Below, one piece after another: positions 4,939 to 37,245 of a stretch of 42,966 bases of DNA (positions are counted from its first letter, which is position 1; every line of letters starts with the position of its first letter). The DNA lies in NCBI GenBank assembly GCA_016193385.1, contig JACPSF010000107.1, forward strand, positions 16,589 through 59,554, written 5' to 3'. A program made the position numbers and the translations under genes. The notes under the pieces are model-generated. The model made no database searches and was not told the DNA's origin. It worked only from the letters and a program-made list of their open reading frames with translations. This DNA comes from Deltaproteobacteria bacterium. Its GTDB lineage: Bacteria > Desulfobacterota_B > Binatia > UBA9968.

Positions 4939-4949
4939 GGCGCTCTAGT

Positions 4950-5103
4950 GAATGGCGAATGGCCAATAGCGAATAGTTAAAAGTAAATAGTCAGCACTGT
5001 ACAGTCACTTCTCAACCGTCGCATCCATCCTTTGACCATTGACTATTGACGATCGACGATTTGCCATTCACTGATTACTGTTCACCGTTCACTGTTTACT
5101 GCG
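4950..5103. repeat. 22-unit degenerate 7-base array filling the yeaH-spoVR spacer
   Basis: The whole spacer can be cut into 22 consecutive 7-base units in one unbroken phase. It begins GAATGGC, GAATGGC, CAATAGC, GAATAGT. In the middle it shifts to GACCATT, GACTATT, GACGATC, GACGATT. It ends CACTGAT, TACTGTT, CACCGTT, CACTGTT, TACTGCG. The sequence of the units drifts but the phase does not. The array begins 12 bases from the spoVR start and runs into the yeaH stop codon (5096-5098). Confidence 0.85.
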
Positions 5104-6354: not shown

Positions 6355-8289
6355 TCAATCCTTCCACAGATTGTTGGCCGCATATTTGAGAACGACATCC
6401 ACACAGCTCGAACAATATCCGTTGTCGAGGAGGTTTTTTACCATGGTGTTGTACTTTTCGCTTTGTTCCTCATCCCGTGTCCTGGCCTTGGTGATGATGC
6501 GGCTCAGATCGCGCACCGAGGTCATCAGTTTCTTCTCGATGGCCTCTTTCAAAGGTTCATAGCTGCCGTAATCGATTTTTTCCCCTCTACGATTGGCGGC
6601 CCACAGATAGGCGATGACCTCCTGGCGGAAACCGTCGGCCGCCGAGCCGATGATGGCGATCTGCTCCTCAATCGATTTCATAAAGCCCTCGTCGGGTGAG
6701 AGTTCCTCCTTGGTGTTTCTATCCTTGACCTTGCTCTTGTTGACGTAGGCCTCAGCGTGGTCCAGATAGTTCTGGAAGAGGGCCTCGGCCTGCTCCTGAT
6801 ACGAATAAACGAATGCCCGGGTGATCTCTTTTTCCAGGAACTCGAGGTACTCCTTGTGCAGGGTGTCCTGGAGAAACTCCAGATATATTTTGCGCGTGTC
6901 GTCGGGTAGATCGGCCTCCTTCACCATGTTGATCAGCGCCTCCCGGACATTGATGGGGTTGATGCAGTTGCCTGCTGTGTTGTCCGAAAGGGCGTTGTCG
7001 AGCGCCATCATGATGAAACGGGTCGAGATACCCGTCATGCCCTCGCGCTTGGCCGCTTCGCGGAGTTCCTGAACATCGGCCTTCTTGGTCCTTCCCTTTT
7101 CAACGACCTCTTCCCCGTTGTAGAGCTTGACTTTCGTCATTAGGTCGCACTTGTTGGTCGGCTCCAGGCGGGAAAGGATGGCGAACATGGAAGCGATCTC
7201 CAAAGTGTGCGGGGCCACATGGGCGTGAAAATCGGAATGGCGAATGATTTTCTGGTAGATTTTGACTTCCTCGGAAAGCCGGAGGTTATAGGGAACCTTG
7301 ATCACCACGATCCGGTCCAGGATCGCCTCATTGGTATGGTCGGCTTTAAACTTCTGCCACTCAGCTTCATTGGAGTGGGCCACGATCACCGTATCGACAT
7401 ACACCAGCCCGTGGCGGCCTGGTGCCGGGATCACCTTTTCTTGAGTCGCGGTGATCATACAGTGGAGATATTCGATTTCGTTTTTGAAGACCTCGATAAA
7501 TTCGACCATCCCACGATTGCCAATATTGAGCGCCCCGTTAAGTTCTAGGACGCGTGGATCTCCTTCGGAGTAGAGGTCGAGCTTGGAGATATCTTCGCTG
7601 CCGATGAGAACCGAGGTGTCCTGGTTGTTAGGGTCGACCGGCGGCACGACGCCGACGCCGACCCGGGCTCGCTTGGAAAACTCCACGGTGCACACCGGAA
7701 ACTCCTCATAGCGCCCATGGAATTCTTCCTTCAGTCGGTAGCGGCAAACCGGACAGAGATCTCCTTCGACGTGAACGCCTAGCATCTTTTCGAATTCTTT
7801 ACGCAGGTGGCGCGGGATGAGATGGATGGGCTCCTCGAACATGGGGCAGCCCTCAATGGCGAAGATGGGGTCACTTTGCTCCAAGCCGCGGTGGAGTTTC
7901 TCGATCAGGGAGCTTTTCCCTGAGCCTACAGGCCCCATCAGATAGAGGACCTGGCGACTTTCCTCGCCTTTTAACGAGGCCGCGTGGAAATAGCGGACGA
8001 TCTGCGCGATGGCTTTCTCTATCCCGAAGAATTCATCGGTAAAGAAGTTGTAGACCTTGACCGACTCGTCTTTGTAAAGGCGCTTGATCCGAGGATCCTC
8101 GATTTCTTGAATGTCCCGCACACCGCCCTTCATGACGATGTCATAGATCCGGGCGTGGGCCAGTTTCGTGACGGAGGCATCCTCCTTGAGCTTGTCGAGG
8201 TAGCCCAGCAGGTTGCCTCGCCAAGATTTCACCTTCCGCGCGTCCCGGTCCTTTCGGATTAGCGTTCCGAAATCCTTATTATTATTCAT
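6355..8289 (-). CDS. prkA: PrkA/YeaG family serine protein kinase (AAA-type ATPase)
   Basis: Cytoplasmic AAA+ protein of the PrkA/YeaG family, described as a Ser/Thr kinase (and in Bacillus as an AAA protease) acting in nutrient stress. The 644-residue protein has the P-loop GPVGSGKS (119-126) and a CxxC pair (C180, C183). A central AAA core contains VIVAHSNEAEW. The C-terminal kinase-like region has STRFIMMALDNAL and ends YCSSCVDVVLKYAANNLWKD. It is the first gene of the operon with yeaH and spoVR. The start ATG at 8289 has a G-rich ribosome site upstream. I see no clear sigma-70 or sigma-54 promoter in front. Confidence 0.96.
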   Translation of the reverse strand: MNNNKDFGTLIRKDRDARKVKSWRGNLLGYLDKLKEDASVTKLAHARIYDIVMKGGVRDIQEIEDPRIKRLYKDESVKVYNFFTDEFFGIEKAIAQIVRYFHAASLKGEESRQVLYLMGPVGSGKSSLIEKLHRGLEQSDPIFAIEGCPMFEEPIHLIPRHLRKEFEKMLGVHVEGDLCPVCRYRLKEEFHGRYEEFPVCTVEFSKRARVGVGVVPPVDPNNQDTSVLIGSEDISKLDLYSEGDPRVLELNGALNIGNRGMVEFIEVFKNEIEYLHCMITATQEKVIPAPGRHGLVYVDTVIVAHSNEAEWQKFKADHTNEAILDRIVVIKVPYNLRLSEEVKIYQKIIRHSDFHAHVAPHTLEIASMFAILSRLEPTNKCDLMTKVKLYNGEEVVEKGRTKKADVQELREAAKREGMTGISTRFIMMALDNALSDNTAGNCINPINVREALINMVKEADLPDDTRKIYLEFLQDTLHKEYLEFLEKEITRAFVYSYQEQAEALFQNYLDHAEAYVNKSKVKDRNTKEELSPDEGFMKSIEEQIAIIGSAADGFRQEVIAYLWAANRRGEKIDYGSYEPLKEAIEKKLMTSVRDLSRIITKARTRDEEQSEKYNTMVKNLLDNGYCSSCVDVVLKYAANNLWKD

Positions 8290-8662
8290 CCCCGTGACTC
8301 CCCCTTTCGGAGTTGATCCTGTTTAAGAAAAAAGGTTGAGTGTCTCTTCTGAACCGGTTTGATTTTCGATGGGCCGCAAATGGTCGTGTTACCCATGCAG
8401 AGCTTGAGAGGTACTCCCGCAGATTTGAGTGCTTTCTATAGGGGCTGGGACAAAAGAAAAAAAAGGGGCTCGGTTTGGTTGGGGGGGAGACCAGAAGCTC
8501 GTTAGGGTCAGCACGAAACCTCCTTTCCCTAAGGATCCCGGTCGGCTTTTACTGGGGTTTCAACTTCCATGACCCCTATGTATCGTCATTGAACCTCTAT
8601 TTTGGCCCAATGTCAAGGAAATTTCTTGTTCGTCGTCGGGTCTTTGGTTTTCTTGCCAGGTT
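8290..8662. other. Gene-free spacer upstream of prkA and the transposase relative
   Basis: About 370 bases with no convincing gene on either strand. A short open frame at 8475-8684 exists but has no family features, and its codons run into the repeated GGGTCGGAC words. The segment contains G-runs and A-runs near 8450-8490. It must hold the prkA promoter (minus strand), though I cannot point to clear -35/-10 boxes. Confidence 0.5.
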
Positions 8663-8818: not shown

Positions 8819-9823
8819 ATGGCCAGGCCGCTTAGAATCCAATACGCAGGAGCCTTATGTCACTTAACCGTCCGCGCGTACCATCGTCAGCCGTTGTTCC
8901 GCGACGACCATGATAGACAACGCTACCTCGACCTCCTCAGCCACTACCAAGACCGGTTCGGCTGCACGATTTATGCTTACGTTCTATTAAAACGAGTGGT
9001 CCATCTCCTCCTCGAAACTCCCCAGGGGAATATAAGTAAAATGATGCAGTGCCTGGGGACGAGCTATACCCAATATTTCAACCGGCGGCACGGACGGCGA
9101 GGGACGCTTTTCGAGGGACGATACAGGAGCTATCTCATTCACAAGGAAACCCGGCTGGCCGAAATTACCCGCTATATTCATCGAGCCCATTTCGACCGAG
9201 GATTGAAAAAACGAAAGCAAAGGGACTACCCATGGAGCAGTTACCGTATCTATCTGGGTCGCAGTGATTCGGGCCTGGTCGAGGTCGAGACCGTTCTAAA
9301 CTGGTTTGGCACCGGCCTGGAGCAGCAACGGAAATATTATATGGAATTTGTTGAAAACGGGAGCCTGAGGGAAAACACTTACCCCCGTGTTATATCTCAG
9401 CAAATCGTGGGTCCCGCCAATTTTGTCGAAAAGGTCTTCGCAGAATTTCAGAATTTTCAGCTTCACGCAGAGAGCTCCTCACTCAAGAAGGCGGAGAGAA
9501 TCCTAAGGGCCGTCAGCCTGATGCTCGACCGCGATGATATTTTAGGTTTTGAGGAGAAAAGGAGAAAATCGCTGGCAAGGCATATAGCCATGTATCTTAT
9601 CAGACGCCAAACAGCGCTTCCTCTGCGTTCCATCGGAGCCATGCTTGGGGTGAAGGCTTCGGCGGTGGCTCTGGCCATCAGAGGAATTGAAAAGTTGCTT
9701 AAACAGGAGGATTCCCCCATCAAAGTGAAGGACTTTTTAAAGCTCCGTGTGCCTCTACTGCCGGAATGGTTCGGCGATCAACCTGCCGTCGGAGAGAATG
9801 CCAGTGGTTCAGCCGACTCTTGA
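8819..9823 (+). CDS. IS200-like/REP-associated (Y1) transposase relative with degenerate HUH motif and DnaA-C-like tail
   Basis: The N-terminal half matches the REP-associated tyrosine transposase group: MARPLRIQYAGALCHLTVRA, then YAYVLLKRVVHLLLE, GTLFEGRY (96-102) and RYIHRAHFDRG. The usual HVH of MPNHVHLL reads VVH here (V60-V61-H62), so one metal-binding His is missing. ARGN reads VRAY and YIHxNP reads YIHRAH. The C-terminal third (about 250-290) resembles the helix-turn-helix of DnaA domain IV (LARHIAMYLIRRQ..LPLRSIGAMLGV). The frame is intact over 334 codons. Its 3' end overlaps the broken NusG-like gene by 26 bases. It is likely catalytically impaired, either decaying or reused as a DNA-binding protein. 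Start ATG 8819. Confidence 0.85.
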   Translation: MARPLRIQYAGALCHLTVRAYHRQPLFRDDHDRQRYLDLLSHYQDRFGCTIYAYVLLKRVVHLLLETPQGNISKMMQCLGTSYTQYFNRRHGRRGTLFEGRYRSYLIHKETRLAEITRYIHRAHFDRGLKKRKQRDYPWSSYRIYLGRSDSGLVEVETVLNWFGTGLEQQRKYYMEFVENGSLRENTYPRVISQQIVGPANFVEKVFAEFQNFQLHAESSSLKKAERILRAVSLMLDRDDILGFEEKRRKSLARHIAMYLIRRQTALPLRSIGAMLGVKASAVALAIRGIEKLLKQEDSPIKVKDFLKLRVPLLPEWFGDQPAVGENASGSADS

Positions 9824-10285
9824 ACTTGAAGGGGGGCTTCGCTGGTATGCCCTCCGGACAAAGCCTAGGAAGGAGCCTGAAGTTGAAAAGAGGCTTAGCA
9901 ACTTCAGGCTTGAGGTTTTCCTACCTTGGCTGCAGTCGCGTCCCCCGGCTACCTGTTTTGCCGTCTCGATGTGTTCGTGTCAGGGAAAGCAGCCAGGTAC
10001 GCGCCCGGGGTAGTCGATTTTGTAAAGTTCGGCAATCGGATTGGTGAAGTGCGCATTGACGTGATCCAGGGGCTGCGGGAAAGATGCCCGAACGGGATAG
10101 CCCAGATTCAGCCGCGGACTTACAAAGCGGGAGAGCCCGTGATGGTTAGGGAAGGGCCTTTTTCCGGGCTGGAGGCGGTCTTCGAGCGTGAGCTCAAAAA
10201 GTCGGAGCGGGTAGCAATCCTTTTGGAAATTCTAGGCCGGCAAACCCGTCTGGTTCTCTCGAGCGAGATGATCGGCCGGCCCTGA
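9798..10285 (+). pseudogene. Frameshifted NusG/RfaH-type transcription antiterminator
   Basis: The first part (ATG 9798, frame continuing past 9925) encodes a NusG N-terminal start, LRWYALRTKPRKEPEVEKRL, followed by LEVFLPWL. The family's next motif, PGYLFCRLDVFV, then appears in another frame from about 9941 and continues to the stop at 10285. That second frame includes a KOW domain (YKAGEPVMVREGPFSGLEAVF) and the tail RVAILLEILGR. The residues that normally lie between FLPWL and PGYLF (about 15-25) are missing, so the lesion is a small deletion that also changes frame. Specialised NusG paralogues of this kind usually sit at the head of long polysaccharide operons, which is exactly the position here. 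If the sequence is right the gene is dead; an assembly error is the alternative. Confidence 0.8.
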
Positions 10286-10434
10286 GGTTGGACAGATTCG
10301 CCGATGAACAACCCGTTGGCGGATTCGTACTGACACCTTCGGTTGATACAGAGCTGCTCGGATTTTACTAAGCATCTCTGAGACATAATGGGGGTTCTTT
10401 CTCCACTAGCGAAAAAGACCCGCAGCTCGGCTAC

Positions 10435-10470
10435 CCCGGGCTATGCAGGGATGGCGGAAGCCTGCCCGGG
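10435..10470 (+). promoter_or_regulatory. Strong hairpin in the leader of the glycan operon
   Basis: CCCGG (10435-10439) pairs with CCGGG (10466-10470). After a 5-base bulge, GCAGG (10445-10449) pairs with CCTGC (10461-10465), closing an 11-base loop. No U-run follows, so it is not an ordinary intrinsic terminator. It lies between a NusG-like gene and the first sugar gene, where recognition or pausing elements for antiterminators occur. The function is inferred from position only. No riboswitch class was recognised. Confidence 0.4.
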
Positions 10471-10480
10471 AGGGGACGTT

Positions 10481-10557
10481 CGAGAATCGAGAGTTCAGAG
10501 CTTTTCGCCGTACTCTGAGAGGTGGATCTTAGCTCTGGGCTCTTAGCTTTTGACTAT
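10481..10557. repeat. Degenerate 7-base array before the first epimerase gene
   Basis: Eleven 7-base units in one phase, beginning CGAGAAT, CGAGAGT, TCAGAGC and ending TAGCTCT, GGGCTCT, TAGCTTT, TGACTAT. The array runs into the start codon of the epimerase at 10556. It is of the same kind as the arrays in the housekeeping operons at 686 and 4950. Confidence 0.6.
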
Positions 10558-11527
10558 GTCCGCAATTCTTGTCACCGGCACCGCCGGCTTCATCGGCTCG
10601 AAGGTTTCTGAACTTTTACTCGCCGAAGGTCACGAAGTCGTGGCCATCGACAATCTCAACGATGCATATGATGTCCGGCTTAAGGAGTGGCGGCTGGCTC
10701 AACTGGAAGGCAAGCCTGGGTTTAACTACCACCGTCTAGACATTTGTGACCGGGAGGGGCTACGCAAGTTGTTCCATGAAAAATTTGAAGCGGTCATTAA
10801 CCTAGCGGCTCGTGCGGGAGTTCGTCAGTCGGTGGAGAACCCCTGGGTCTATCTTGATACCAACGTGACCGGCACACTGAATCTCCTGGAGCTTTGCAGA
10901 GACTTTGGAATAAAGAAGTTCGTCCTCGCCTCCACTTCTAGCCTCTACGGGGCAAACAATCCTCTGCCCTTTCGCGAGGATGCTAGGACCGATGGTCCCC
11001 TTTCGCCTTATGCAGCTTCCAAAAAGGCAGCGGAAGTGCTTTGCCACACCTACCATTATCTTTACGGAGTTGACGTGAGCGTACCGCGGTTTTTCACCGT
11101 TTATGGACCAGCCGGACGCCCGGACATGAGTCTTTTCCGATTTGTCCAACGGATCAGCGAAGGATTACCGGTAACCGTTTACGGTGACGGCATGCAGTCA
11201 CGTGATTTTACTTATGTGGACGACATCGCGAGGGGTACATTGGCGGCCCTTAAGCCTCTCGGATACGAGATAATTAACCTGGGCTCCGATCAGCCTGTTG
11301 TCCTCCGGGATGCTATCCAATTGATAGAGCGCTTGGTTGATCGGAAGGCACGGACGGAGTTTAAGCCCCGCCATCCGGCCGATGTCCTAGCGACTTGGGC
11401 GGATATCAGCAAGGCCAAGAGCCTCTTAGGGTGGCGGCCTCAAACGAAATTGGAGCAAGGCGTTCGTCAATTAGTAGATTGGTACCGACAGAACCGAGCA
11501 TGGGCCAAGGAAATCAGCACGGACTAA
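10556..11527 (+). CDS. NAD-dependent NDP-sugar epimerase, UDP-glucuronate 4-epimerase-like
   Basis: Extended short-chain dehydrogenase/reductase acting on a nucleotide sugar. Seen: the NAD loop GTAGFIG near the N-terminus, STSSLYG with the catalytic Ser, YAASK (Tyr/Lys pair) and RFFTVYGPAGRPDMS. The last is characteristic of the UDP-glucuronate 4-epimerase/CapI branch. Length 323 residues, typical. I start at ATG 10556 (MSAILVTG) rather than the TTG two codons upstream, because MSAILVTG aligns with the family. It is the first gene of the long plus-strand locus, preceded by the heptamer array and leader hairpin. The exact substrate is uncertain. Confidence 0.85.
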   Translation: MSAILVTGTAGFIGSKVSELLLAEGHEVVAIDNLNDAYDVRLKEWRLAQLEGKPGFNYHRLDICDREGLRKLFHEKFEAVINLAARAGVRQSVENPWVYLDTNVTGTLNLLELCRDFGIKKFVLASTSSLYGANNPLPFREDARTDGPLSPYAASKKAAEVLCHTYHYLYGVDVSVPRFFTVYGPAGRPDMSLFRFVQRISEGLPVTVYGDGMQSRDFTYVDDIARGTLAALKPLGYEIINLGSDQPVVLRDAIQLIERLVDRKARTEFKPRHPADVLATWADISKAKSLLGWRPQTKLEQGVRQLVDWYRQNRAWAKEISTD

Positions 11528-11641: not shown

Positions 11642-12715
11642 ATGGATGATATGCGTGTCCTTTTAATCGGCTTAGGAAGCTTTGGGTGCAATCACCTGAG
11701 GGCCTGGCACGAGCTGGGCCTTGGCCGGAATCTCTACGTCGCAGAGATCGATCCGAAACGGCACTCTGAGTGTGAAATTTACAGGTTGAGCTCTGATCGC
11801 ATAACGGCTGATTATCATTATTTTCTGGACTCGGTGAATGTTGTGGACATTGTGACCCCGTCAACGAGCCACTTTGCCCTCTGTTCGGAGGCTCTGCGGG
11901 CGGGAAAAGACGTCTTTATAGAGAAACCCATGACCATGACATCGGAGGAGGCGTCGGAGCTGGCGGCCTTGGTTCGAAAGACAGGACGGGTGCTCCAGGT
12001 GGGTTACTATTATCGTTTTCATCCCATTTCACGTTCCCTCAAGACACAAATGCGGGCGCAGGGTCTGGGAGAGCTTAGGTATTTGTCCGGGAATTTTATG
12101 GGCTTTAAACGGGCCCGCACCGATGTGGGAGTCACTCACACGGACGCTATTCATTTCCTCGATCTATTCAATTGGTTTGTGGCAAGACCTCCCAACGAAG
12201 TCTATGCGGTAACACGTGATCATTTCGGACGAGGGATGGAGGACCTCTCTTTGGCAGTGCTTGAGTATCCAAACGGGATATTAGCAAAGGTAGAATCGGG
12301 TTATATTCAGCCCGGGAGATGGCGCGATAAAGTAGTGCCCGATGCCTTTACTTCCAAGGAAATCTTTGTGGCCGGCAGTCGCGCGACCGTAGAAGCAGAT
12401 TTTGAGACGGAGCAAATGGTCGTTCATAACGTGCACCAGGAATTCCGTGATGGTACATGGTGGCCGGTCTTGGGCGGGTTTCAGGTCCCCTATTTGGGGA
12501 CGGCCAGTCCCGTCCAGATGATCTGTGCTGAGTTGTCGGCGTTCCTTGAATGCGTGCGGAGACGCGGGCGGCCTGGTGCCAATGTTGTGGGAAGCGGCGT
12601 GGTTCTAGCTAAACTTATGGAGGCGATCTACGGCTCGGCTCGACAAAACGTTCCCGTCGAGCTTCGCTGGAGTCCAGACGAGATTGAGAGCTTGGAAACG
12701 GGGAGCGAGACGTGA
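11642..12715 (+). CDS. Gfo/Idh/MocA family sugar oxidoreductase (A)
   Basis: NAD(P)-dependent oxidoreductase of the glucose-fructose oxidoreductase family, expected to act on a sugar or nucleotide-sugar hydroxyl. Seen: a Rossmann start VLLIGLGSFGCNH, TPSTSHF, and the family signature EKP (FIEKPMTMT) with the conserved Lys. Then comes GYYYRFHP and a C-terminal sheet domain with THTDAIHFLDLFNWF. Length 357 residues, typical. Its closest relative in the window is the enzyme at 39989 (shared FMGF and PGxWR segments). The stop overlaps the GTG of the DAHP-synthase-like gene by 4 bases, so the two are probably translated together. Confidence 0.85.
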   Translation: MDDMRVLLIGLGSFGCNHLRAWHELGLGRNLYVAEIDPKRHSECEIYRLSSDRITADYHYFLDSVNVVDIVTPSTSHFALCSEALRAGKDVFIEKPMTMTSEEASELAALVRKTGRVLQVGYYYRFHPISRSLKTQMRAQGLGELRYLSGNFMGFKRARTDVGVTHTDAIHFLDLFNWFVARPPNEVYAVTRDHFGRGMEDLSLAVLEYPNGILAKVESGYIQPGRWRDKVVPDAFTSKEIFVAGSRATVEADFETEQMVVHNVHQEFRDGTWWPVLGGFQVPYLGTASPVQMICAELSAFLECVRRRGRPGANVVGSGVVLAKLMEAIYGSARQNVPVELRWSPDEIESLETGSET

Positions 12716-13575
12716 AGGACCTAAGCGAGAGCGATCTTAAAGAACGTATTCCCTTAGCGGCAAAAACGTCGCAGAGGCAGAAGTCCGCTGTCCGTGTAGG
12801 CGATGTAAGCATTGGCGGTGAGAAGATAGTGGTGATGGCAGGCCCTTGCGCGGTGGAAAACCTAGAGCAGGTGATCGATATAGCGCACCGTGTGAAGGCT
12901 GCCGGGGCTGCTGTTTTACGTGGAGGCGCTTATAAACCACTGACCTTCCCTTACCGAAGTGATAGTGTTTTCGAATTGCGTGAAACGGGACTTAAGTACC
13001 TTGCTGCGGCGGGGAGGGCGGCTGGGCTACCCGTAGTGACGGAGGTCATGGATCAGCGCCTCGTGGAGACGGTAGCGAAGTACGCGGATATCTTGCAGAT
13101 CGGCGCTCGAAATATGCAGAATTTTCCGCTTTTGGAGGAAGTGGCAAAAACTCGTAAGCCGGTCTTACTAAAGCGGCATTTTGGCTGCAGCCTACGCGAT
13201 TGGCTCGGCGCGGCCGAGTATTTGCTTTACGGTGGAAATTCCAACGTCGTGCTTTGCGAACGCGGGGTTGTGGCGCCGCATACGCACGAGGTGAACTCCA
13301 GATTTATCGTAGACATCCAGGCCATACCCGCAATTAGGGAGTATTCACATCTTCCGATCGTTGTGGATCCCAGTCACGCCACGTTCAAGAGAGACTATGT
13401 TGGTCCCGTGGCTCGGGCTGCTATTGCGGCCGGGGCTGATGGCATCCTTATAGATGTTCACCCCGTACCGGAAAAGGCGGCGGTGGACCCCCTGCAAGCG
13501 CTGTCCTATAGCTGTTTTGAAAGCTTGATGCGGGAGCTTCGGGGGATCGCACAGGTCCTGGGTCGTACCCTTTAG
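12712..13575 (+). CDS. DAHP-synthase-like 3-deoxy-ulosonate synthase with altered aldose-phosphate site
   Basis: Homologue of type I-beta DAHP synthase, which condenses PEP with erythrose-4-phosphate. Retained: AGPC (C46), R70, K75, K154-R155, CERG (R184) and DPSHA (H222). A metal-ligand Glu appears as Asp (D248). Changed: KPRTSPY reads KPLTFPY, losing the Arg (L77) that in characterised enzymes contacts the erythrose-4-phosphate phosphate. LLKRGMSAT reads LLKRHFGCS, and the TATRNTLD region reads HEVNSRFIVD. At 287 residues it lacks the regulatory ACT-like or mutase domains. GTG start overlaps the previous stop by 4 bases; the AroE-like gene follows 13 bases later. Catalysis with PEP looks intact. 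The aldehyde partner is probably not erythrose-4-phosphate (inference). Confidence 0.8.
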   Translation: MKDLSESDLKERIPLAAKTSQRQKSAVRVGDVSIGGEKIVVMAGPCAVENLEQVIDIAHRVKAAGAAVLRGGAYKPLTFPYRSDSVFELRETGLKYLAAAGRAAGLPVVTEVMDQRLVETVAKYADILQIGARNMQNFPLLEEVAKTRKPVLLKRHFGCSLRDWLGAAEYLLYGGNSNVVLCERGVVAPHTHEVNSRFIVDIQAIPAIREYSHLPIVVDPSHATFKRDYVGPVARAAIAAGADGILIDVHPVPEKAAVDPLQALSYSCFESLMRELRGIAQVLGRTL

Positions 13576-13588
13576 TCTCGCCGCTTCG

Positions 13589-14710
13589 ATGACCGTTACC
13601 TGCTCAGTTCAGCAGCTTCAACCCATCGTCACAAATCGACTCGATCCTGCTGCGGGCGATTGGTCCTGCCTTGCCGGGATCATTGGCGATCGGCCATCCC
13701 AGTATGCGAAGAGCCCTTCCCTATGGAATGCCGCGTTTCGCGCTGTGGGCCTCGATGCTATTTACCTGCCTTTGGATGTCGAGGCTCATAATCTAGCTGC
13801 TCTTGTGGCCGTCCTTCGTGAAAGCAGGCAGGTGGCGGGTTTTAACGTGACCGTCCCGTACAAGGTGGCGGTGATGGAACTGCTCGATGATTTGGATCCC
13901 AAAGCTCGTCAGATCGGTGCTGTCAACACCGTGGCGCGCACGAAAGACGGAAAACTGGTCGGACACAATACGGATGGCCAAGGGTTCATCGACATGCTTA
14001 CCAGAGAGTTGCCCGGGCAAGCGCAAGCCTTCCTTCCAGAACTCAACGGAATTAAAGTTTTGCTCATCGGTTCTGGGGGGGCAGCCCGGGCAGTGGCCTT
14101 CTACTTGGCTGACGCCATTGGGGCAAACGGCCACTTAACCATTGTGAGTCGGAGTCAAGAGAAGGCTCATGCATTAGCGAGCGCCGTGGACCGGATTTAT
14201 GGAAATGCTTACGGCACCCGTGAGAACGAGGTGGCATCCGTGGCACCCAAAGTCGATCTTGTCGTCAATGCATCCACCAAAGGTCAACAGGGTGTGCGAA
14301 AGGTGCCGAATCATCGGATCACGTGCCTTGAGCCTTATTCGGCCTTAAGCCCAGCCCGACCCGCGGAGTATCCTGAGGGCAGCTTTTCTAGCGAGGCCGC
14401 CTTCTATGCCACATGGTACCGCGAGTCCTTTGCGGAAATTTGCTCCAACCTTCGATTGTCCGGAGAAATAGTGATGCATGTTGCGGAGACGGCAGCGTTT
14501 GTAGACTTGATCTATGCGCCTCTAGAGTCGGTTACGTTGTGCCAGGCGAGATGGACAGGGCATCGGGTTCTGAATGGAAAGGGGATGAATATCGCTCAGG
14601 CGAGCGATGCCTTTGTAAACCGAATCATGCAGCCGTATTTAGCTACCGCAGAGGAAGAATTGGGATCTATCTACCAGCGTGTTTTTCGGACTATGGCAGA
14701 GGTGTGGTGA
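13589..14710 (+). CDS. Long shikimate-dehydrogenase-like protein (AroE family), copy 2 in the glycan locus
   Basis: Collinear with copy 1 at 2234 and the same length (373 residues), with the same N-terminal extension and the same C-terminal insertion. Catalytic Lys (K92 in NVTVPYK) and Asp (D129 in NTDG) are kept, as are the nucleotide loop GSGGAA and GMNIAQ. The substrate-carboxylate motif reads QYAKSP: the first Ser of SKS (Ser14 in E. coli AroE) is Ala40 here. It follows the DAHP-synthase-like gene by 13 bases, with no dehydroquinate synthase or dehydratase nearby. That argues against ordinary shikimate synthesis and for a reduction of a related keto compound. The role is inferred. Confidence 0.82.
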   Translation: MTVTCSVQQLQPIVTNRLDPAAGDWSCLAGIIGDRPSQYAKSPSLWNAAFRAVGLDAIYLPLDVEAHNLAALVAVLRESRQVAGFNVTVPYKVAVMELLDDLDPKARQIGAVNTVARTKDGKLVGHNTDGQGFIDMLTRELPGQAQAFLPELNGIKVLLIGSGGAARAVAFYLADAIGANGHLTIVSRSQEKAHALASAVDRIYGNAYGTRENEVASVAPKVDLVVNASTKGQQGVRKVPNHRITCLEPYSALSPARPAEYPEGSFSSEAAFYATWYRESFAEICSNLRLSGEIVMHVAETAAFVDLIYAPLESVTLCQARWTGHRVLNGKGMNIAQASDAFVNRIMQPYLATAEEELGSIYQRVFRTMAEVW

Positions 14711-14770: not shown

Positions 14771-15784
14771 TTGACCCTTCCAGCCCATAAGGTTCTTGTC
14801 GTTGGCGCGGGCTCCGTCGGGTCTCGGCATATACGAAACCTCTTGGCCTTGGGAGCGCAAGTCTCTGTGTATCGATACCGCCAGCATAGCAATGCCCGCC
14901 TGCGAGAGCTGGGGGAAGGGATACGGGTTTTTCAGTCCCTCGAAGAAGCTTTGTCTTCGGATGTCAAAGCCGTGGTGGTGGCTAACCGAACCGACCAGCA
15001 CGTCGCCGTAGCCCTCGCCGCTGCGGAGCGAGGTCTCCATTTATTCATCGAGAAGCCGCTCTCGCACAGCATGGAAGGGCTGGAAAGACTTTTAATGCTG
15101 GTAGGCGAACGCAATTTGGTCGTTGAAGTGGGCTGCATGATGCGGTTTCATCCCAATCTTCTCTGGATTCGGAACGCTCTTCGCGACGGGCTCATAGGTG
15201 ATGTCTACTTCGCTCGAGCCGTGGTAGGACAGTACCTGCCGGATTGGCGTCCGGGGCAGGATTACCGGCTCTCCTACAGTGCTCGGGTTGATCAGGGCGG
15301 CGGGGCCGTGCTCGACCTCGTGCACGAGCTGGATTATCTGACTTGGTGGTTTGGCGACGTGGAGGAGGTGGCTGCGCTACTCGGCCACGTCTCTAAGCTG
15401 GAAATCACTTCGGAGGACGTAGCGCAGATCTTGCTTCTCTTCCGCAGCGGGGTGATGGCCGAAGTGCACGTGGACTATGTACGGCCCACCTACCGCCGCA
15501 GCGTTGAGGTCGTCGGAAGTCGTGGTGTCCTTAGCTGGAATGATCCCGGAGGAACCGTCACGCTGGAGGGTCCTGGTGGAGAGACGGTAACGCACAGGGT
15601 GCCGGTTGATTTCGAACGTAACCAAATGTTCCTTGAGCACATGCGTTGGTTTCTGGATCGTTTGATTTCGCAAAAAGAAGCGGTTGTCCCGATCTACGAA
15701 GGGGTTCGTGCACTGCAGGTCGCCCTGGCGGCCCGTATTTCCTCTAAAAACCGGACCTTTGTTCAGCCGGCCTCTCTACAGTAA
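14771..15784 (+). CDS. Gfo/Idh/MocA family sugar oxidoreductase (B)
   Basis: NAD(P)-dependent oxidoreductase with the Rossmann motif VLVVGAGSVGSRHIRN, the signature FIEKPLSH, and GCMMRFHPNL. A C-terminal sheet domain contains GGGAVLDLVHELDYLTWWFG, where the His/Asp pair is typical of the active site. Length 337 residues. The start is TTG 14771 with AGAGG just upstream. The 60-base spacer before it has a tandem 14-base repeat built on TGGTGACGGAG. It sits between the AroE-like gene and a CMP-ulosonate synthetase homologue, so it may act on a precursor of that sugar. Confidence 0.85.
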   Translation: MTLPAHKVLVVGAGSVGSRHIRNLLALGAQVSVYRYRQHSNARLRELGEGIRVFQSLEEALSSDVKAVVVANRTDQHVAVALAAAERGLHLFIEKPLSHSMEGLERLLMLVGERNLVVEVGCMMRFHPNLLWIRNALRDGLIGDVYFARAVVGQYLPDWRPGQDYRLSYSARVDQGGGAVLDLVHELDYLTWWFGDVEEVAALLGHVSKLEITSEDVAQILLLFRSGVMAEVHVDYVRPTYRRSVEVVGSRGVLSWNDPGGTVTLEGPGGETVTHRVPVDFERNQMFLEHMRWFLDRLISQKEAVVPIYEGVRALQVALAARISSKNRTFVQPASLQ

Positions 15785-15824: not shown

Positions 15825-16541
15825 GTGAGTATTCTCTGCGTCATCGGGGCCCGCGGAGATTCCAAAGGCCTTCCCGGGAAAAACATCCGACTGCTTCTGG
15901 GCAAGCCACTCATCGTTTGGTCTGTAGAACAGGCTCTCTGCTGTCCGGAAATCACCCGGGTCGTGGTGTCCACCAACTCTGAAGAAATCGTTGCGATCGC
16001 ACGAAAGGCGGGTGCGGAAGCACCGTTTCTCCGTCCCTGGGGACTCGCCACGGACAGGGCCGGGAAATTCCAAGTGTGGCAGCATGCTTTGGTGGAGTGC
16101 GAAAGATACTACGGAGAGAAGTATGAGTGTTTTGTCGATCTGGATTGTACGAATCCTCTGCGAGACGTTGCGGACATCTCATCGGCCGTCCAACAATTCA
16201 GGGAAAGCCGCAAGCGAGGCGTGGACGCTGTCTTGTCCGTGTGTCTGGCTCGAAAAAATCCTTATTTTAACATGTTGGAAGTCAATCCCAATGGAGCGCT
16301 TAGAGTTTGTAAGGATTCGCCCAAGCCGATCGTCCGCCGCCAGGATGCGCCCACGGTATACGACCACGTTGCGAGCATTTATGTTTTGGACCCGGCCTAT
16401 CTCCGGAGGGCGAGCTGCCTGCTGGAGGGTCATGTGGAGGGGTATGATATCGGCGCGGCCAAGAGTTTCGATGTAGACTCTGAGCTTGATTTCCGCATCA
16501 TCGAAATGCTGATGAAAGACAAATTCTCAACGGCCTCTTGA
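15825..16541 (+). CDS. CMP-ulosonate synthetase homologue (acylneuraminate cytidylyltransferase family), first copy
   Basis: Family member that would activate a 2-keto-3-deoxy acid sugar with CTP. The nucleotide loop reads GARGDSKGLPGKN, where the family usually has PARGGSKGxPxKN. The motif usually written LQPTSPLR reads LDCTNPLR, and the C-terminal DVDSELDF is present. Length 238 residues, typical. GTG start at 15825; the stop overlaps the next gene's TTG by 4 bases. The order here (cytidylyltransferase, SDR, NeuB-type synthase, NeuC-type epimerase, CBS-guanylyltransferase) recalls the Campylobacter jejuni ptm locus. Divergence at the sugar-facing motif suggests a substrate different from the copies at 32777 and 36532. 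Confidence 0.85.
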   Translation: MSILCVIGARGDSKGLPGKNIRLLLGKPLIVWSVEQALCCPEITRVVVSTNSEEIVAIARKAGAEAPFLRPWGLATDRAGKFQVWQHALVECERYYGEKYECFVDLDCTNPLRDVADISSAVQQFRESRKRGVDAVLSVCLARKNPYFNMLEVNPNGALRVCKDSPKPIVRRQDAPTVYDHVASIYVLDPAYLRRASCLLEGHVEGYDIGAAKSFDVDSELDFRIIEMLMKDKFSTAS

Positions 16542-17397: not shown

Positions 17398-18435
17398 ATG
17401 GCAGAGTTCGAAATTGGTGATCGAAGGATCGGAGAAGAATATCCGCCATTTGTCGTAGCGGAAGCAGGCATCAACCACGAGGGAGACTATAACAAGGCGG
17501 TCCAAATGGTGGATGCTGCGGTTGCGGCCCGTGCGGACTGCGTCAAGTTTCAGTGCCACATCACGGAAGAGGAGATGGTTCCCACTGACATGAAGCCTGG
17601 AAAGATTTCCGATGAACGGCTCTGGGACATTATAAAGCGTTGCGAGCTTACGGAGGACGAAGAACACCGAGTCCAGGCCTATTGCGAAGAAAAGGGGATC
17701 CTTTACCTCTGTACTCCGTTCTCCCGAGCCGCTGCCGACCGGCTCTATAAAATGGGAGTACCGGCATTCAAAATTGGTTCCGGAGAGTGCAACAACCTTC
17801 CCCTGATCGATCACGTGGCCGGAATGGGCAAGCCGGTCATCCTGTCCACAGGGATGAACGATGTGGAATCTATCCGCCACTCTGTTGCCCTTTTTCGTAA
17901 AAGGAACTGTCCCGTCATGCTCATGCACTGTACCTCGATGTATCCAACCCCCTACGGGAAGGTGAGGCTGGGCGCTATCCAAGAGCTGAAGAGAGAATTT
18001 GCCCTGCCTGTGGGACTGAGCGACCATTCCTTGGGAATCTACGCGTGTTTGGGAGCCGTCGCACTCGGAGCTTGCGCTCTGGAAAAGCACTTCACGATCA
18101 GTCGGGGTTGGCCAGGACCTGACGTTCCGATTTCCATTGAGCCTGGGGAGTTGGCTGAAATGGTTAAAGGCGCCCGGGCCATCTGGGAAGCTCGTGGGGG
18201 CAGGAAGACCATCTTACCGGAAGAGCAACCGGTCATCGACTTCGCCTACGCCACGGTAGTGACGATCCGTCCCGTCAAACAGGGGGAGGTTTTCACGCGA
18301 GAGAACACATGGGTCAAACGGCCGGGTACTGGGCCCATACTGGCTCGGGATTTTGAGCGGGTACTGAAAAAAAAGGCCAAGAGGGCTCTTCCAGCTGACG
18401 TTCACGTGTCGCCCAATGACGTTGAAAGCTACTGA
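17398..18435 (+). CDS. NeuB-family ulosonate synthase, divergent clade
   Basis: Sialic/legionaminic/pseudaminic-acid-synthase family: a TIM barrel condensing PEP with an N-acyl amino sugar, plus a C-terminal SAF (antifreeze-like) domain. Seen: VVAEAGINHEG (20-30), DCVKFQ, CTPFS, FKIGSGE, LSTGM, HCTSMYPTP, GLSDHS, EKHFT. The SAF start reads VFTRENTWVKRPGTG. Residues 55-90 (HITEEEMVPTDM...LWDII) replace the KxxxKAxYQ...ESQL segment that lies over the substrate in typical sialate and legionaminate synthases. The copy at 25784 has the typical segment. Length 345 residues; ATG 17398 has a good GGGAGGAG site. The substrate may differ from legionaminate. Confidence 0.88.
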   Translation: MAEFEIGDRRIGEEYPPFVVAEAGINHEGDYNKAVQMVDAAVAARADCVKFQCHITEEEMVPTDMKPGKISDERLWDIIKRCELTEDEEHRVQAYCEEKGILYLCTPFSRAAADRLYKMGVPAFKIGSGECNNLPLIDHVAGMGKPVILSTGMNDVESIRHSVALFRKRNCPVMLMHCTSMYPTPYGKVRLGAIQELKREFALPVGLSDHSLGIYACLGAVALGACALEKHFTISRGWPGPDVPISIEPGELAEMVKGARAIWEARGGRKTILPEEQPVIDFAYATVVTIRPVKQGEVFTRENTWVKRPGTGPILARDFERVLKKKAKRALPADVHVSPNDVESY

Positions 18436-19366: not shown

Positions 19367-20560
19367 GTGCAGCACAGAAAGAGAAAGATAGCCGTTTTCA
19401 CCGGAAACCGCGCGGAATACGGGCTCCAATACCCCATCCTCAAGGCCATCGATAAGGAGCCGGCCTTAGAATATTACCTTTTGGTATCCGGGGCGCATTT
19501 GGACGAGGACTTCGGGCGGACGGTTACGGAGATAGCGCGGGACGGGTTTCGTATTTTCCGGGAGGTGAAGCTGGAAATGACCCGGGACACCCTGTACGCG
19601 ACGGCGCAGGCCATTGCTACGGGGATTTTAAGCCTGAGCGCTACGCTTGATGAACTCAAGCCCGATGTTTTGCTGGTCTACGCGGACCGCTTTGAAGGCT
19701 TCTCTGCCGTGATCACGGGAAGCCAAATGGGCATACCCACCGCCCACGTGGAGGGCGGCGACATCACCGAAGGAGGAGCCCTGGACGATTCCGTCCGCCA
19801 CGCCATGACCAAATTGGCTCATCTCCATTTTACTACCAATGAGGACGCGGCAAGGAGAATCAAGGCCATGGGCGAGGAGGATTGGAGAGTCTTTAATGTA
19901 GGATTCCCCGCCATTGACCTTATAGCCGCTGGGGAGTACGCGACGCCAGAGGAGATTGCGCGGAAATATGGGGTCGACCCGAAAAGAGCGCTGGTTGTTT
20001 TCACTCAACATTCCGTGGCCACGGAGTTTGAAAAGGCCGACGCTCAGATCCGGCCTTCGCTGGAGGCGATGGAGATTCTAGCCGGGAAGGGCTGCCAAGT
20101 GATGATCACCTACCCCAACAACGATGCGGGCGGAAGGCGGATCATCCGGGAGATTCAGTCGTTCGCTCAACGCAGGATCCCTGGGATTCAGTTTCATAGA
20201 AGTCTCGGAAGGTTTGACTACCACGGACTGCTAAATATCTGCGGCCGCATCGGACGCGGTGTATGCGTAGGCAACTCCTCCAGCGGAATCAAAGAAACAC
20301 CTGCATTAGGGTGCCCGACGGTCAATATCGGGTCGCGTCAAAAGGGCCGACTTCGCGCGACCAACATCCTGGACGTGGGGTACGATCGGGAAGCGATCGC
20401 TGCGGCTGTCCTGCACAGCCTTGAGGATGAAGGCTTCCGCGCCCGGTGCCGCGATTGCCAAAATCCCTACGGGGTTGGCAATGCCGGCCCAAAAATCGCC
20501 GGCGTGCTTAGCTCCATTGAGCTAGGCCCGCGCTTGATTCAGAAACGGATGGTTATCTAG
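19367..20560 (+). CDS. legG: Hydrolysing NDP-N-acetylhexosamine 2-epimerase, LegG/NeuC family
   Basis: GT-B-fold enzyme that removes the nucleotide and inverts C2, delivering a free ManNAc-type sugar for the synthase step; LegG does this for the diacetamido sugar of legionaminic acid. Seen: VFTGNRAEYGLQYP near the N-terminus, VYADRFEG, HVEGGDITEGGALDDSVRHA, TQHSVATEF, NSSSGIKETP and NIGSRQKGR. These are the family's catalytic and UDP-binding blocks. Length 397 residues. GTG start at 19367 with no strong ribosome site. Neighbours are an epimerase upstream and the PtmE-like guanylyltransferase downstream, as expected for the legionaminate route. Confidence 0.9.
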   Translation: MQHRKRKIAVFTGNRAEYGLQYPILKAIDKEPALEYYLLVSGAHLDEDFGRTVTEIARDGFRIFREVKLEMTRDTLYATAQAIATGILSLSATLDELKPDVLLVYADRFEGFSAVITGSQMGIPTAHVEGGDITEGGALDDSVRHAMTKLAHLHFTTNEDAARRIKAMGEEDWRVFNVGFPAIDLIAAGEYATPEEIARKYGVDPKRALVVFTQHSVATEFEKADAQIRPSLEAMEILAGKGCQVMITYPNNDAGGRRIIREIQSFAQRRIPGIQFHRSLGRFDYHGLLNICGRIGRGVCVGNSSSGIKETPALGCPTVNIGSRQKGRLRATNILDVGYDREAIAAAVLHSLEDEGFRARCRDCQNPYGVGNAGPKIAGVLSSIELGPRLIQKRMVI

Positions 20561-25783: not shown

Positions 25784-26839
25784 GTGGTTGGGACAATTGA
25801 TATAGCTGGCCGAAAGGTAGGTAAAAATCAGCCGGTTTTTATCATTGCCGAGGCCGGCGTCAACCACAATGGCGATGTCAAGATGGCCCTGGAGTTAGTG
25901 CGGGAGGCCAAGCGGTGCGGGGCAGACTGCGTCAAGTTTCAGACCTTTAAGGCGGAGTCGGTGGTGACTGCGCGGGCGCGCAAGGCGGCGTACCAGCTTG
26001 AGGTAACCGATAAGCAGGAGTCCCAGCTCGAGATGCTGAAAAAGATCGAGCTGCCCGAAGCTAGCTATCCGGAATTGATGGCGCTATGCAAGCATCTCGG
26101 CATCCAATTCTTATCCACGCCGTACAATTTTGCTGACGTAGATTTATTGCATCGACACGGGGTGGACGCCTTTAAAATCGCCTCGGGCCAGATGGTAGAG
26201 ACCCCCTTCCTGGAACATGTGGCGAGATTCGGTAAGCCGATGTTTGTCTCCACGGGCATGTGTACGTTGAGTGAGGTCCAAGAGGGTCTAGAGAGCATAT
26301 GCCGGGCAGGAAATAGTCAGGTGGTCATCCTCCAGTGCACGACCAATTACCCTTCTTCCGTAGAAGACGCGAATATAAGGGCCATGGCCTCGATGGCGGA
26401 TTCGTTGAAAGTCCTGGTCGGGTATTCAGACCACACCGGGAGCGACTATTCAGCCCTGGCCGCCGTGGCATTAGGGGCGGTGGTGGTGGAGAAGCATTTT
26501 ACCTTGGATAAGACCTTGCCGGGCCCCGATCACTCCTGCTCTTTGGAGCCGGCGGACCTGGCGCGATTCGTTCAGGCTATTCGGAGCGTGGAAACAGCGT
26601 TGGGAAGTCACGTCAAAGCGCCGGCGGAGGCCGAGCGCAGGAATATAGCCGGAATGAGGCGGAGCATTGTTGCGACCAGAACTATTGCTGCCGGAACCCC
26701 TATTTCCCGGGACCATGTGGAATTCAAGAGACCTGCGGTCGGGATCGAGCCGAGAAGGCTCAAGGAGGTGCTGGGAAAAAAGGCCAAAGTAAACATCCCC
26801 GCGGACACTCCGCTGACGGCGGAAATGATCGAATGGTAG
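25784..26839 (+). CDS. legI: Legionaminic/sialic acid synthase, LegI/NeuB family
   Basis: Canonical synthase condensing PEP with a ManNAc-type sugar to a nine-carbon ulosonic acid; best match is LegI. Seen: IIAEAGVNHNGD, DCVKFQTFKAESVV, KAAYQL...ESQLEMLKKIEL (the substrate segment of the family), STPYNF, FKIASGQ, STGMC, QCTTNYPS, GYSDHT, EKHFTLDKTLPGPDH. The C-terminal SAF domain includes RRSIVATRTI and FKRPAVGIEP. Length 351 residues. GTG start; the acetyltransferase ATG follows the stop directly. It is distinct from the divergent synthase at 17398. Confidence 0.92.
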   Translation: MVGTIDIAGRKVGKNQPVFIIAEAGVNHNGDVKMALELVREAKRCGADCVKFQTFKAESVVTARARKAAYQLEVTDKQESQLEMLKKIELPEASYPELMALCKHLGIQFLSTPYNFADVDLLHRHGVDAFKIASGQMVETPFLEHVARFGKPMFVSTGMCTLSEVQEGLESICRAGNSQVVILQCTTNYPSSVEDANIRAMASMADSLKVLVGYSDHTGSDYSALAAVALGAVVVEKHFTLDKTLPGPDHSCSLEPADLARFVQAIRSVETALGSHVKAPAEAERRNIAGMRRSIVATRTIAAGTPISRDHVEFKRPAVGIEPRRLKEVLGKKAKVNIPADTPLTAEMIEW

Positions 26840-32582: not shown

Positions 32583-32762
32583 TTGGGCATTCTTAGGGAT
32601 CTATCCAGTCGCTTTGGCATTGCCGTGGAGCTCGTGGAATTCCTTTGGACCAACAAGCTCTGGTGGATGATCCCGCTGGTGGTTCTTCTCATCCTATTTG
32701 GATCGTTAATCGTCTTCACCCAGAGCAGCGCCGTGGCTCCATTTATTTACACCCTGTTTTAG
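32583..32762 (+). CDS. Small membrane protein, DUF5989-like
   Basis: A 59-residue protein with TTG start and a good GAGGAACAAA site. It begins MGILRDLSSRFGIAVELVEF and has one strong hydrophobic helix (MIPLVVLLILFGSLIVF, about residues 29-45). It ends QSSAVAPFIYTLF, the conserved tail of this family. In other genomes this family follows the carbamoyltransferase gene in saxitoxin-like and surface-glycan loci, exactly as its position after the carbamoyltransferase remnant suggests. It has survived while its partner was deleted. The stop is 14 bases before legF. Confidence 0.75.
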   Translation: MGILRDLSSRFGIAVELVEFLWTNKLWWMIPLVVLLILFGSLIVFTQSSAVAPFIYTLF

Positions 32763-32776
32763 TACTCCCAAGGGGC

Positions 32777-33487
32777 ATGAAAACTTTAGGCATCATCCCG
32801 GCGAGGGGAGGATCCAAGAGAGTTCCCAAAAAGAACATCCGCCCCTTGTTAGGAAAGCCCCTCATTGCCTATACCATAGAGGTCGCGCTGCGGGCCCGGT
32901 GCATCGATCGGTTGATCGTATCCACCGACGATGATGAGATTGCTCATATCGCCCAGAAGTATGGAGCCGAAGTTCCCTTCATGCGCCCCTCGGAGTTGGC
33001 TCAGGACGACACCCCGGATCAGCCTGTTTTTCGACATGCACTGGATTGGCTCAAGGAACACGAGGGTTATGTGCCTGACCTCGTGTTGAACCTGCGTCCC
33101 ACCACCCCTTTTAAGACGCCTGAGATTATCGAGGAAGTTGTCCAGCGAATGGTGGATACGAACGCAGATGTGGTGCGGACGATGTCCCGCGTCGATGGGG
33201 TTTACCACCCGTACTGGATGTACCGATTATCCGACGACGGCCGGGCTCGTCCGTTCGTAAATGGAATTAAAGTGGCCGATTACTATCAGTCGCAGCTGTT
33301 GCCCCCGGTATACCGGATTAATGGTCTTGTCGATGCCATTAAGCCTCGGGCGATCTACGAAGGCAGCTTTTTGGATACCTCGAACATGGTTGCCGTTATC
33401 GTGTCCGACGAAGTATCGATAGATGCGGATACCGAGATTGATTTGAAACTCTGCGAGGTGTTACTGAACGATGCTGAGGCCACCTGA
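32777..33487 (+). CDS. legF: CMP-legionaminate/CMP-sialate synthetase, LegF/NeuA family, second copy
   Basis: Activates the nine-carbon sugar with CTP. The protein begins MKTLGIIPARGGSKRVPKKN (the canonical loop), with VSTDDDEIA and LRPTTPFK in place of LQPTSPLR. The C-terminal DADTEIDL carries the catalytic Asp. Length 236 residues. Start ATG 32777 is preceded by AAGGGG; the open frame upstream overlaps the small membrane protein and is not coding. It is the most canonical of the three cytidylyltransferase homologues here, so I pair it with LegI (25784). Confidence 0.88.
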   Translation: MKTLGIIPARGGSKRVPKKNIRPLLGKPLIAYTIEVALRARCIDRLIVSTDDDEIAHIAQKYGAEVPFMRPSELAQDDTPDQPVFRHALDWLKEHEGYVPDLVLNLRPTTPFKTPEIIEEVVQRMVDTNADVVRTMSRVDGVYHPYWMYRLSDDGRARPFVNGIKVADYYQSQLLPPVYRINGLVDAIKPRAIYEGSFLDTSNMVAVIVSDEVSIDADTEIDLKLCEVLLNDAEAT

Positions 33488-36531: not shown

Positions 36532-37245
36532 ATGGCGTCTAAGGTTATTTCCATTACCCCTGCCCGTGGCGGCTCCAAAGGTCTGCCGCGTAAGAATATA
36601 AGGCCGTTACTGGGCAAGCCGCTGATCGCCTATCCGATCGAGGCGGCGGTCGCAAGCGGGGTGGTGGATACGGTGCTGGTGACCACGGATGATGAAGAGA
36701 TCGCCGAAGTGGCGCGCAAAGCAGGTGCGGAAGTGCCGTTTCTTCGCCCCAGAGAGCTGGCCGATGATTTGGCGACGACCGAAGCCACCTTGCAGCATGC
36801 TTTGCTGGCATACGAAAAATCGACCGGACGGACTTTCGATATCTGCGTTTTTCTCACGGCGACCGACATTTTCCGCCAACCCGCGTGGATAACCCATGCG
36901 GTGCGTATTCTCCATGAGCGGCCCGAGATTGAAAGCGCCTTCTCCGCTCACGCCACTTCTAAGAACTACTGGCAGAAAAGGGAAGACGGAAGCTATGAGC
37001 GACTGCTTCCCTGGATGCGCAGCTATAGCTCGCGCCAGGTTCGCCAGGTCATATATCGCGAAGACACGGGGCTGGCGTGCGCAAGCCGCGCCTGGTTGTG
37101 GCGCGAGGGCCGTCGTATCGGAGACCGGGTCGAAATCATTCCCAACTCCGACTCGGCTACCTCCATCGACATTCACACGGAATTCGACTTCTTTTTGGCC
37201 GAACAGGCTTTGAAGTACCTCAAGGAGCATTCTGAGTATGATTGA
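36532..37245 (+). CDS. CMP-ulosonate synthetase homologue (acylneuraminate cytidylyltransferase family), third copy
   Basis: 237 residues with the CTP loop TPARGGSKGLPRKN, VTTDDEEIA and the C-terminal SIDIHTEFDF. The sugar-facing motif LQPTSPLR is strongly changed to LTATDIFR, and the middle part (NYWQKREDGSYERL) is also unlike sialate enzymes. It overlaps by 8 bases a FMN-dependent 2-hydroxyacid oxidase homologue, an unusual partner. Probably activates an acid sugar different from those of the copies at 15825 and 32777. Confidence 0.82.
   Translation: MASKVISITPARGGSKGLPRKNIRPLLGKPLIAYPIEAAVASGVVDTVLVTTDDEEIAEVARKAGAEVPFLRPRELADDLATTEATLQHALLAYEKSTGRTFDICVFLTATDIFRQPAWITHAVRILHERPEIESAFSAHATSKNYWQKREDGSYERLLPWMRSYSSRQVRQVIYREDTGLACASRAWLWREGRRIGDRVEIIPNSDSATSIDIHTEFDFFLAEQALKYLKEHSEYD

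Follow-up and report, generated by a model that had tools for sequence, protein, structure and literature searches.

The window, i.e., the whole stretch of 42,966 nucleotides that was analyzed, encodes a homologue of DAHP synthase (here referred to as DAHPSx) in which an arginine of the erythrose-4-phosphate (E4P) site is replaced by leucine, and which is encoded in a sugar locus directly upstream of an AroE homologue (AroEx). The reading that we favor and consider likely is that DAHPSx is a PEP-aldose synthase that derives from the type I-beta lineage, uses an aldose other than E4P and forms a 3-deoxy-ulosonate, which would be altered by dehydrogenases, activated as a CMP-sugar and used in a surface or flagellar glycan. 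The DAHPSx and AroEx pair thus probably makes an acidic sugar that is displayed on cell surfaces or flagella. The gene and the altered motif are located as follows.

12712..13575, forward strand: DAHPSx, a predicted PEP-aldose synthase of the DAHP-synthase family, with KPLTFPYR, C46, D248 and H190/H192
12934..12957, forward strand: KPLTFPYR, residues 75-82 of DAHPSx, with Leu for the canonical E4P Arg and a new Arg82

The DAHPSx reading frame starts with GTG and comprises 287 amino-acid residues. The protein scores 319.1 bits against TIGR01361, the profile of type I-beta DAHP synthases, i.e., above the curated cutoff of 267.75, and 208.4 bits against PF00793, and it is 44-56% identical to the canonical enzymes of loci L002-L080. 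The structure model has a mean pLDDT of 92.4, falling to 64-70 in the blocks that contain the KPLT loop, where it is weak, and superposes on 1vs1 with a TM score of 0.87 (normalized to the query). DAHPSx shares with the type I-beta enzymes (TIGR01361; 1vs1, 1zco, 1rzm) the fold, the PEP residues and the Cys/His/Asp metal ligands, but differs from them in that KPLTFPYR replaces KPRTSPYS, a loop reads HxH and the gene is found in glycan loci. According to passages of PMC6362186, E4P is bound by the Arg and Thr of KPRT in the enzyme of T. maritima, and the metal by Cys, His, Glu and Asp; in the docking described there, E4P did not reproduce the contacts with the KPRT Arg and Thr, so that the evidence for an anchor role is the crystal structure cited in that paper. 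The original prediction, which was made from the window alone, had listed C46, R70, K75, K154, R184 and H222 as retained PEP and metal residues and had pointed to altered loops facing the aldose. All six residues are found in DAHPSx, and KPLT, KRHFGCS and HEVNSRFIVD occupy the positions of the canonical KPRT, KRGxSAT and TATRNTLD. To these differences can be added that the metal ligand at position 248 is Asp (Glu in the canonical enzymes), that there are three-residue insertions after KPLTFPY and after CERG, and that R82, H190, H192, F225 and P260 are fixed or nearly fixed in the family.

The family-wide comparison was made with three sets of sequences. The canonical set holds 83 type I-beta sequences (79 from loci L002-L080 and four from carrier genomes), the family set holds 130 rows (121 for the window and its best 120 homologues of a larger set, plus nine from carrier genomes), and the clade-B set consists of the best 120 homologues of a larger set found with the gene of carrier G411 as query. 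The family and clade-B sets add up to 250 rows (121 + 9 + 120), which overlap in part because some carriers also appear in the homologue lists. Position 77 is Arg in 83/83 canonical sequences and in none of the 130 family rows, where it is Leu (126), Met (3) or Ile (1); the window and its best 120 homologues account for 117 Leu, three Met and one Ile, and the carriers have Leu in 9/9. Clade B has Leu in 120/120. The E4P-binding KPR[TS] feature of the type I-beta enzymes is therefore absent (Arg77 in 0/130 and 0/120), and the Arg-to-Leu change, first noted in a single protein, is a feature of the whole homologue family. Other positions changed with it: F79 is found in 130/130 family rows (Ser, Gly or Asn in canonical sequences), R82 in 128/130 and in 120/120 of clade B (a gap in canonical sequences), H190 in 130/130 (canonical Arg, of GIRT), H192 in 130/130 vs 2/83, F225 in 130/130 (canonical Gly) and P260 in 130/130 vs 0/83. 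The PEP residues R70, K75, R133, K154 and R184, as well as H222 and D259, are invariant in 250/250 rows, which suggests that these proteins are likely active PEP enzymes.

The metal site divides the homologues. Cys46 is found in 121/121 of the window-type list and Asp248 in 117/121 (Glu in three, Asn in one), while clade B has Asn46 and Glu248 in 120/120. Of the Cys/His/Glu/Asp set, the window and most of its type have Asp248 for Glu and clade B has Asn46 for Cys, with H222 and D259 kept in both. Source names of the window type include Nitrospira sp. Kam-Ns4a, Gemmatimonadaceae, Acidobacteria and Tectomicrobia. Clade B takes in four of the nine carriers, those from the Alphaproteobacteria search, and its source names include Roseibium (member P0250 is from Roseibium sp. 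MMSF_3544) and Tara ocean data. A switch between metal-dependent and metal-independent forms is known for KDO8P synthase (KdsA), a member of the same superfamily. The title of PDB entry 2nwr, one of several entries on an engineered path from a metallo to a non-metallo enzyme, names a C11N mutant of KDO8P synthase; because Asn replaces Cys46 in the same manner, clade B may be metal-independent.

A tree was calculated from 66 sampled rows after removal of the diagnostic columns and was rooted on five KdsA rows. With a bootstrap that had yet to settle (0.983), one side of a branch (support 97/82) holds the family, represented by 21 window-type rows and nine carriers, and 31 canonical rows form a separate branch with support 93/70. 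As judged from the sequences, the KPLT change marks a discrete family and is no point change. Assignment of DAHPSx as KdsA or NeuB was ruled out by profiles and tree: unlike KdsA, it has no KANRS motif, scores 105.6 bits against TIGR01362 (cutoff 314) and lies on a separate branch of the tree, and unlike NeuB (N-acetylneuraminate synthase), it scores only 26.5 bits against the NeuB profile and has no SAF domain.

The start of the DAHPSx gene overlaps the upstream gene by 4 nt and the AroEx gene follows after 13 nt, so that Gfo_A, DAHPSx and AroEx look like one operon. The surrounding sugar locus contains the following genes.

10550..11527, forward strand: NAD-dependent epimerase/dehydratase, upstream end of the sugar locus
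11642..12715, forward strand: Gfo_A, Gfo/Idh/MocA oxidoreductase, overlapping DAHPSx by 4 nt
13589..14710, forward strand: AroEx, shikimate-dehydrogenase-family protein of 373 residues, with Lys92 and Asp129 kept
14771..15784, forward strand: Gfo_B, a second Gfo/Idh oxidoreductase
15825..16541, forward strand: CTPtr1, cytidylyltransferase, a neighbor that perhaps serves a NeuB product
17398..18435, forward strand: NeuB1 (NeuB and SAF), neighboring pathway
19367..20560, forward strand: NeuC, UDP-GlcNAc 2-epimerase, neighboring pathway
25784..26839, forward strand: NeuB2, neighboring pathway
32645..33487, forward strand: CTPtr2, cytidylyltransferase, neighboring pathway
36532..37245, forward strand: CTPtr3, PseF-like cytidylyltransferase, predicted partner of DAHPSx

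Gfo_A is 53-56% identical to the gene that adjoins DAHPSx in loci L097 and L103. CTPtr3 is 50-65% identical to a cytidylyltransferase near DAHPSx or AroEx in 7/9 carriers; in the window it lies 23 kb from DAHPSx, with CTPtr1 and CTPtr2 nearer, and no cytidylyltransferase at least 50% identical to it was found in loci L103 and L158. Scans of 29 ORFs located between 10550 and 42207 (27 by Pfam and two by NCBIfam only, with one lacking any match) found neither a phosphatase nor a DHQ synthase family. The same interval holds three genes for PEP-condensing enzymes (DAHPSx, NeuB1 and NeuB2) and three cytidylyltransferase genes, which suggests that up to three acidic sugars are made in one glycan locus. 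Among the remaining genes, an FMN-dependent dehydrogenase (lactate-dehydrogenase-like; 37238-38269) follows CTPtr3 directly, and no Pfam family was matched at 0.001 by a 505-residue protein of the locus (24257-25774). Two transposase genes were noted: one is IS200-like (Y1_Tnp), encodes a DnaA-type domain as well and precedes the sugar locus (8819-9823), and the other, of the integrase-core kind, lies inside it (38755-39870). As to carriage by mobile elements, no plasmid match was found at 1e-60, and the ten matches to phage records at 1e-20, which are without annotation, include none of at least 60% identity (best 46.7%).

AroEx, which was absent from the original prediction, scores 83.8 bits against PF08501 and 168.2 against the shikimate dehydrogenase profile TIGR00507, i.e., under the cutoff of 200.2. 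Lys92 and Asp129, which we take to be the catalytic residues of the AroE family, are present in 120/120 AroEx homologues and in 9/9 carriers. Ala takes the place of the first SxSP serine in AroEx of 9/9 carriers and in 112/120 homologues, including 26/26 of those on contigs that were matched to DAHPSx contigs; the Ser residues of this motif presumably have a role in carboxylate binding. The structure model of AroEx (pLDDT 95.9) has shikimate dehydrogenases as its best fold matches. A sugar enzyme, 5-ketofructose reductase (7cok/7col), ranks 6th by fold; by sequence it ranks 3rd for AroEx and 2nd for AroEx of G411, behind shikimate dehydrogenases. Its presence among the relatives of AroEx, as named in PDB entries, indicates that sugars can be substrates of AroE-family enzymes. 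AroEx thus resembles both AroE and 5-ketofructose reductase in the AroE fold and the catalytic Lys/Asp, but differs from AroE in the lost Ser, in a length that is greater by about 70-80 residues in the window clade, and in its score below the TIGR00507 cutoff. The 8/8 carriers tested (all but G914) have a further AroE-family gene; these genes read HSxSP in 7/8 genomes, while both in G413 do not. The long AroE family extends beyond the DAHPSx module: a second long homologue in the window (2234-3355, reverse strand), outside the sugar locus, is 47% identical to AroEx and keeps both motif Ser residues (YSKSP). The Ala of SxSP is not tied to the module. In locus L097, a further paralogue (7274-8392) lies beside the module, and its residues at the positions that align with the substrate and catalytic Asp are changed.

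Linkage of these genes was followed in nine carrier genomes, which are a non-random sample. G001 was the only KPL[ST] member among the 80 loci listed in the homologue search. DNA pattern searches gave G155 and G073 (2/295 genomes) and G736 and G622 (2/297 genomes), both with KPLT-only patterns that miss KPLS members, as well as G428, G413, G411 and again G001 (4/289 genomes) and G914 (3/118 genomes including two repeats; another search gave 1/114, a repeat). Neighboring genes in the carriers were called as simple ORF picks by codon-position score, and some of these were checked with Pfam. An AroE homologue is found on 8/9 DAHPSx loci and a cytidylyltransferase also on 8/9; in the ninth carrier, G428, both are found together with a GT2 on another short contig (C328, locus L159). 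The same queries in the 79 canonical DAHP synthase loci gave four AroE, one Gfo and one cytidylyltransferase. These controls are the shorter loci, with a median of 14.7 kb, the queries were in part taken from the carriers and, because the AroE queries are of the AroEx type, distant AroE genes may be missed. A search for cytidylyltransferases beside relatives of DAHPSx had been proposed together with the original prediction, and this association was found (8/9 loci vs 1/79 canonical). A Gfo/Idh gene is found on 7/9 DAHPSx loci; in L098 the contig ends beside DAHPSx, and L099 gave a weak match only. The Gfo/Idh proteins of the loci belong to two distinct subfamilies, with 53-56% and 35-46% identity within them and 22-32% between them where aligned. 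In addition, when contigs were matched by length, 26 of the 120 DAHPSx clusters listed had a counterpart in the AroEx list; with the lengths shifted by 1-60 in either direction, 1.25 matches were obtained on average and four at most. Gfo and AroEx are fused in L102.

The carrier loci hold further genes of sugar and flagellar function. A flagellin-family gene and FliW are found in L097 and a flagellin gene in L100. GT2 and cytidylyltransferase are fused in L101 (7156-8583). Near DAHPSx in G428 (L099) lie a transaldolase-family gene (4584-5354) and a cytidylyltransferase-like/PfkB fusion (9737-11368). Divergent genes for NeuB with SAF adjoin DAHPSx/AroEx in four carriers (L097 11875-12912, L098 6905-8011, L102 10607-11602, L103 7226-8167), and a NeuB-cytidylyltransferase fusion (L158 2884-4656) is found near a module; in these cases DAHPSx might not make the activated sugar. 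At 22.4 bits, the NeuB-like protein of L102 barely exceeds the cutoff of the NeuB profile (22.1 bits); it may act on a different substrate or lack catalytic activity.

The glycan loci and the presence of other DAHP synthases in the carriers speak indirectly against a role of DAHPSx in aromatic biosynthesis. The case raised against the original prediction, a KPLT enzyme as the sole DAHP synthase, was not found in the carriers, as 9/9 have another DAHP synthase. This second enzyme is of type I-beta with KPRS or KPRT in G155, G073, G736 and G622, and of type II in G428, G413, G411 and G001. In G914 it is of a KPRTTV type, which we assume to be type I-alpha. One copy of DHQ synthase, off the contig of the module, is found in 7/8 carriers tested (all but G914); none was found in the single-cell genome G001.

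From these data we infer the acceptor, the order of steps, the substrate of AroEx and the final glycan as follows. DAHPSx would be a member of the DAHPS/KDO8PS/NeuB superfamily that was derived from a type I-beta DAHP synthase and gave up the use of E4P. PEP would attack the aldehyde of another aldose, most likely unphosphorylated as in NeuB, to give a 3-deoxy-2-ulosonate. The Gfo/Idh protein and AroEx would then alter a ring hydroxyl, perhaps by oxidizing it and then reducing from the opposite face, and a PseF-like cytidylyltransferase (CTPtr3 in the window) would produce a CMP-sugar, to be built into a surface polysaccharide or a flagellin glycan. A NeuB-like role, i.e., PEP condensation that feeds a cytidylyltransferase, is suggested by the combination of a retained PEP site, a lost E4P anchor, the cytidylyltransferase partner and the lack of a phosphatase in the locus. 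AroEx could act on the ulosonate because a 3-deoxy-2-ulosonate is, in its pyranose form, similar to quinate (OH and COOH on one carbon, followed by CH2 and then by CHOH groups); this likeness, the precedent of 5-ketofructose reductase and the Gfo-AroEx fusion point to a role of AroEx and Gfo at a ring hydroxyl.

The most serious alternative, to which we assign about a one-in-four standing, is that the acceptor is phosphorylated after all, e.g., a pentose or hexose phosphate used in the style of KDO8P synthase, with the phosphate bound at Arg82 or the His190/His192 loop. All three residues are new and fixed or nearly fixed, and the near-invariant R82 could still bind a phosphate from a different side; yet no phosphatase family was found among the 29 window ORFs (it could lie elsewhere in the genome), and the canonical Arg of GIRT is also replaced, by H190. 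It is improbable that the module supplies a glycan with a carbocyclic acid (quinate, shikimate or cyclitol type), where the housekeeping DHQ synthase would close the ring and AroEx would act on a true quinate- or shikimate-like ring. The adjoining AroE homologue with its catalytic Lys and Asp and the DHQ synthase in 7/8 carriers tested fit this idea, but the module itself has no DHQ synthase (the single copies are on other contigs), AroEx lacks the first Ser of SxSP, and no special DAHP synthase would be needed with DAHP as the intermediate. Cyclization by DHQ synthase also requires the phosphate, which counts against the same idea. Still less credible is an ordinary extra DAHP synthase isozyme that tolerates the Arg-to-Leu change: the TIGR01361 score and the identity to canonical enzymes agree with it, but the Arg is missing in 250/250 rows along with a set of co-fixed changes, all nine carriers have a sugar or flagellar gene context and each has another DAHP synthase. 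A non-catalytic or decaying paralogue, to which the E248D change in the window clade might point, is very unlikely given PEP residues invariant in 250/250 rows, conservation across several phyla, and residue pairs (C46/D248 or N46/E248) that are fixed, or almost fixed, within their clade; plain degeneration was set aside because of this residue invariance.

We thus return to the non-E4P PEP-aldose synthase as the preferred reading. More tentatively, and with rather less confidence than an even chance, we propose that two shikimate-pathway enzymes were co-recruited in several phyla into an unrecognized CMP-ulosonate route, where DAHPSx would use a non-E4P aldose and AroEx would act on a ulosonate ring that mimics quinate; that the Asn46 clade (alphaproteobacterial, with marine members) is maybe metal-independent and repeats the KDO8P synthase switch in the DAHP synthase lineage; and that flagella and cell surfaces would carry the product, an acidic sugar of a new class. 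No description of a DAHP synthase-AroE pair in glycan loci was found in the open-access literature. Where sources give these proteins a name, it is 3-deoxy-7-phosphoheptulonate synthase, and with this label genome models would add an extra entry enzyme to aromatic biosynthesis and miss a sugar pathway. If the proposal is true, the family would be a new lineage among the PEP-aldose synthases, AroE-type enzymes would gain a role in the synthesis of acidic sugars, and an undescribed acidic sugar would be predicted in some Alphaproteobacteria, Nitrospirota and Acidobacteriota.
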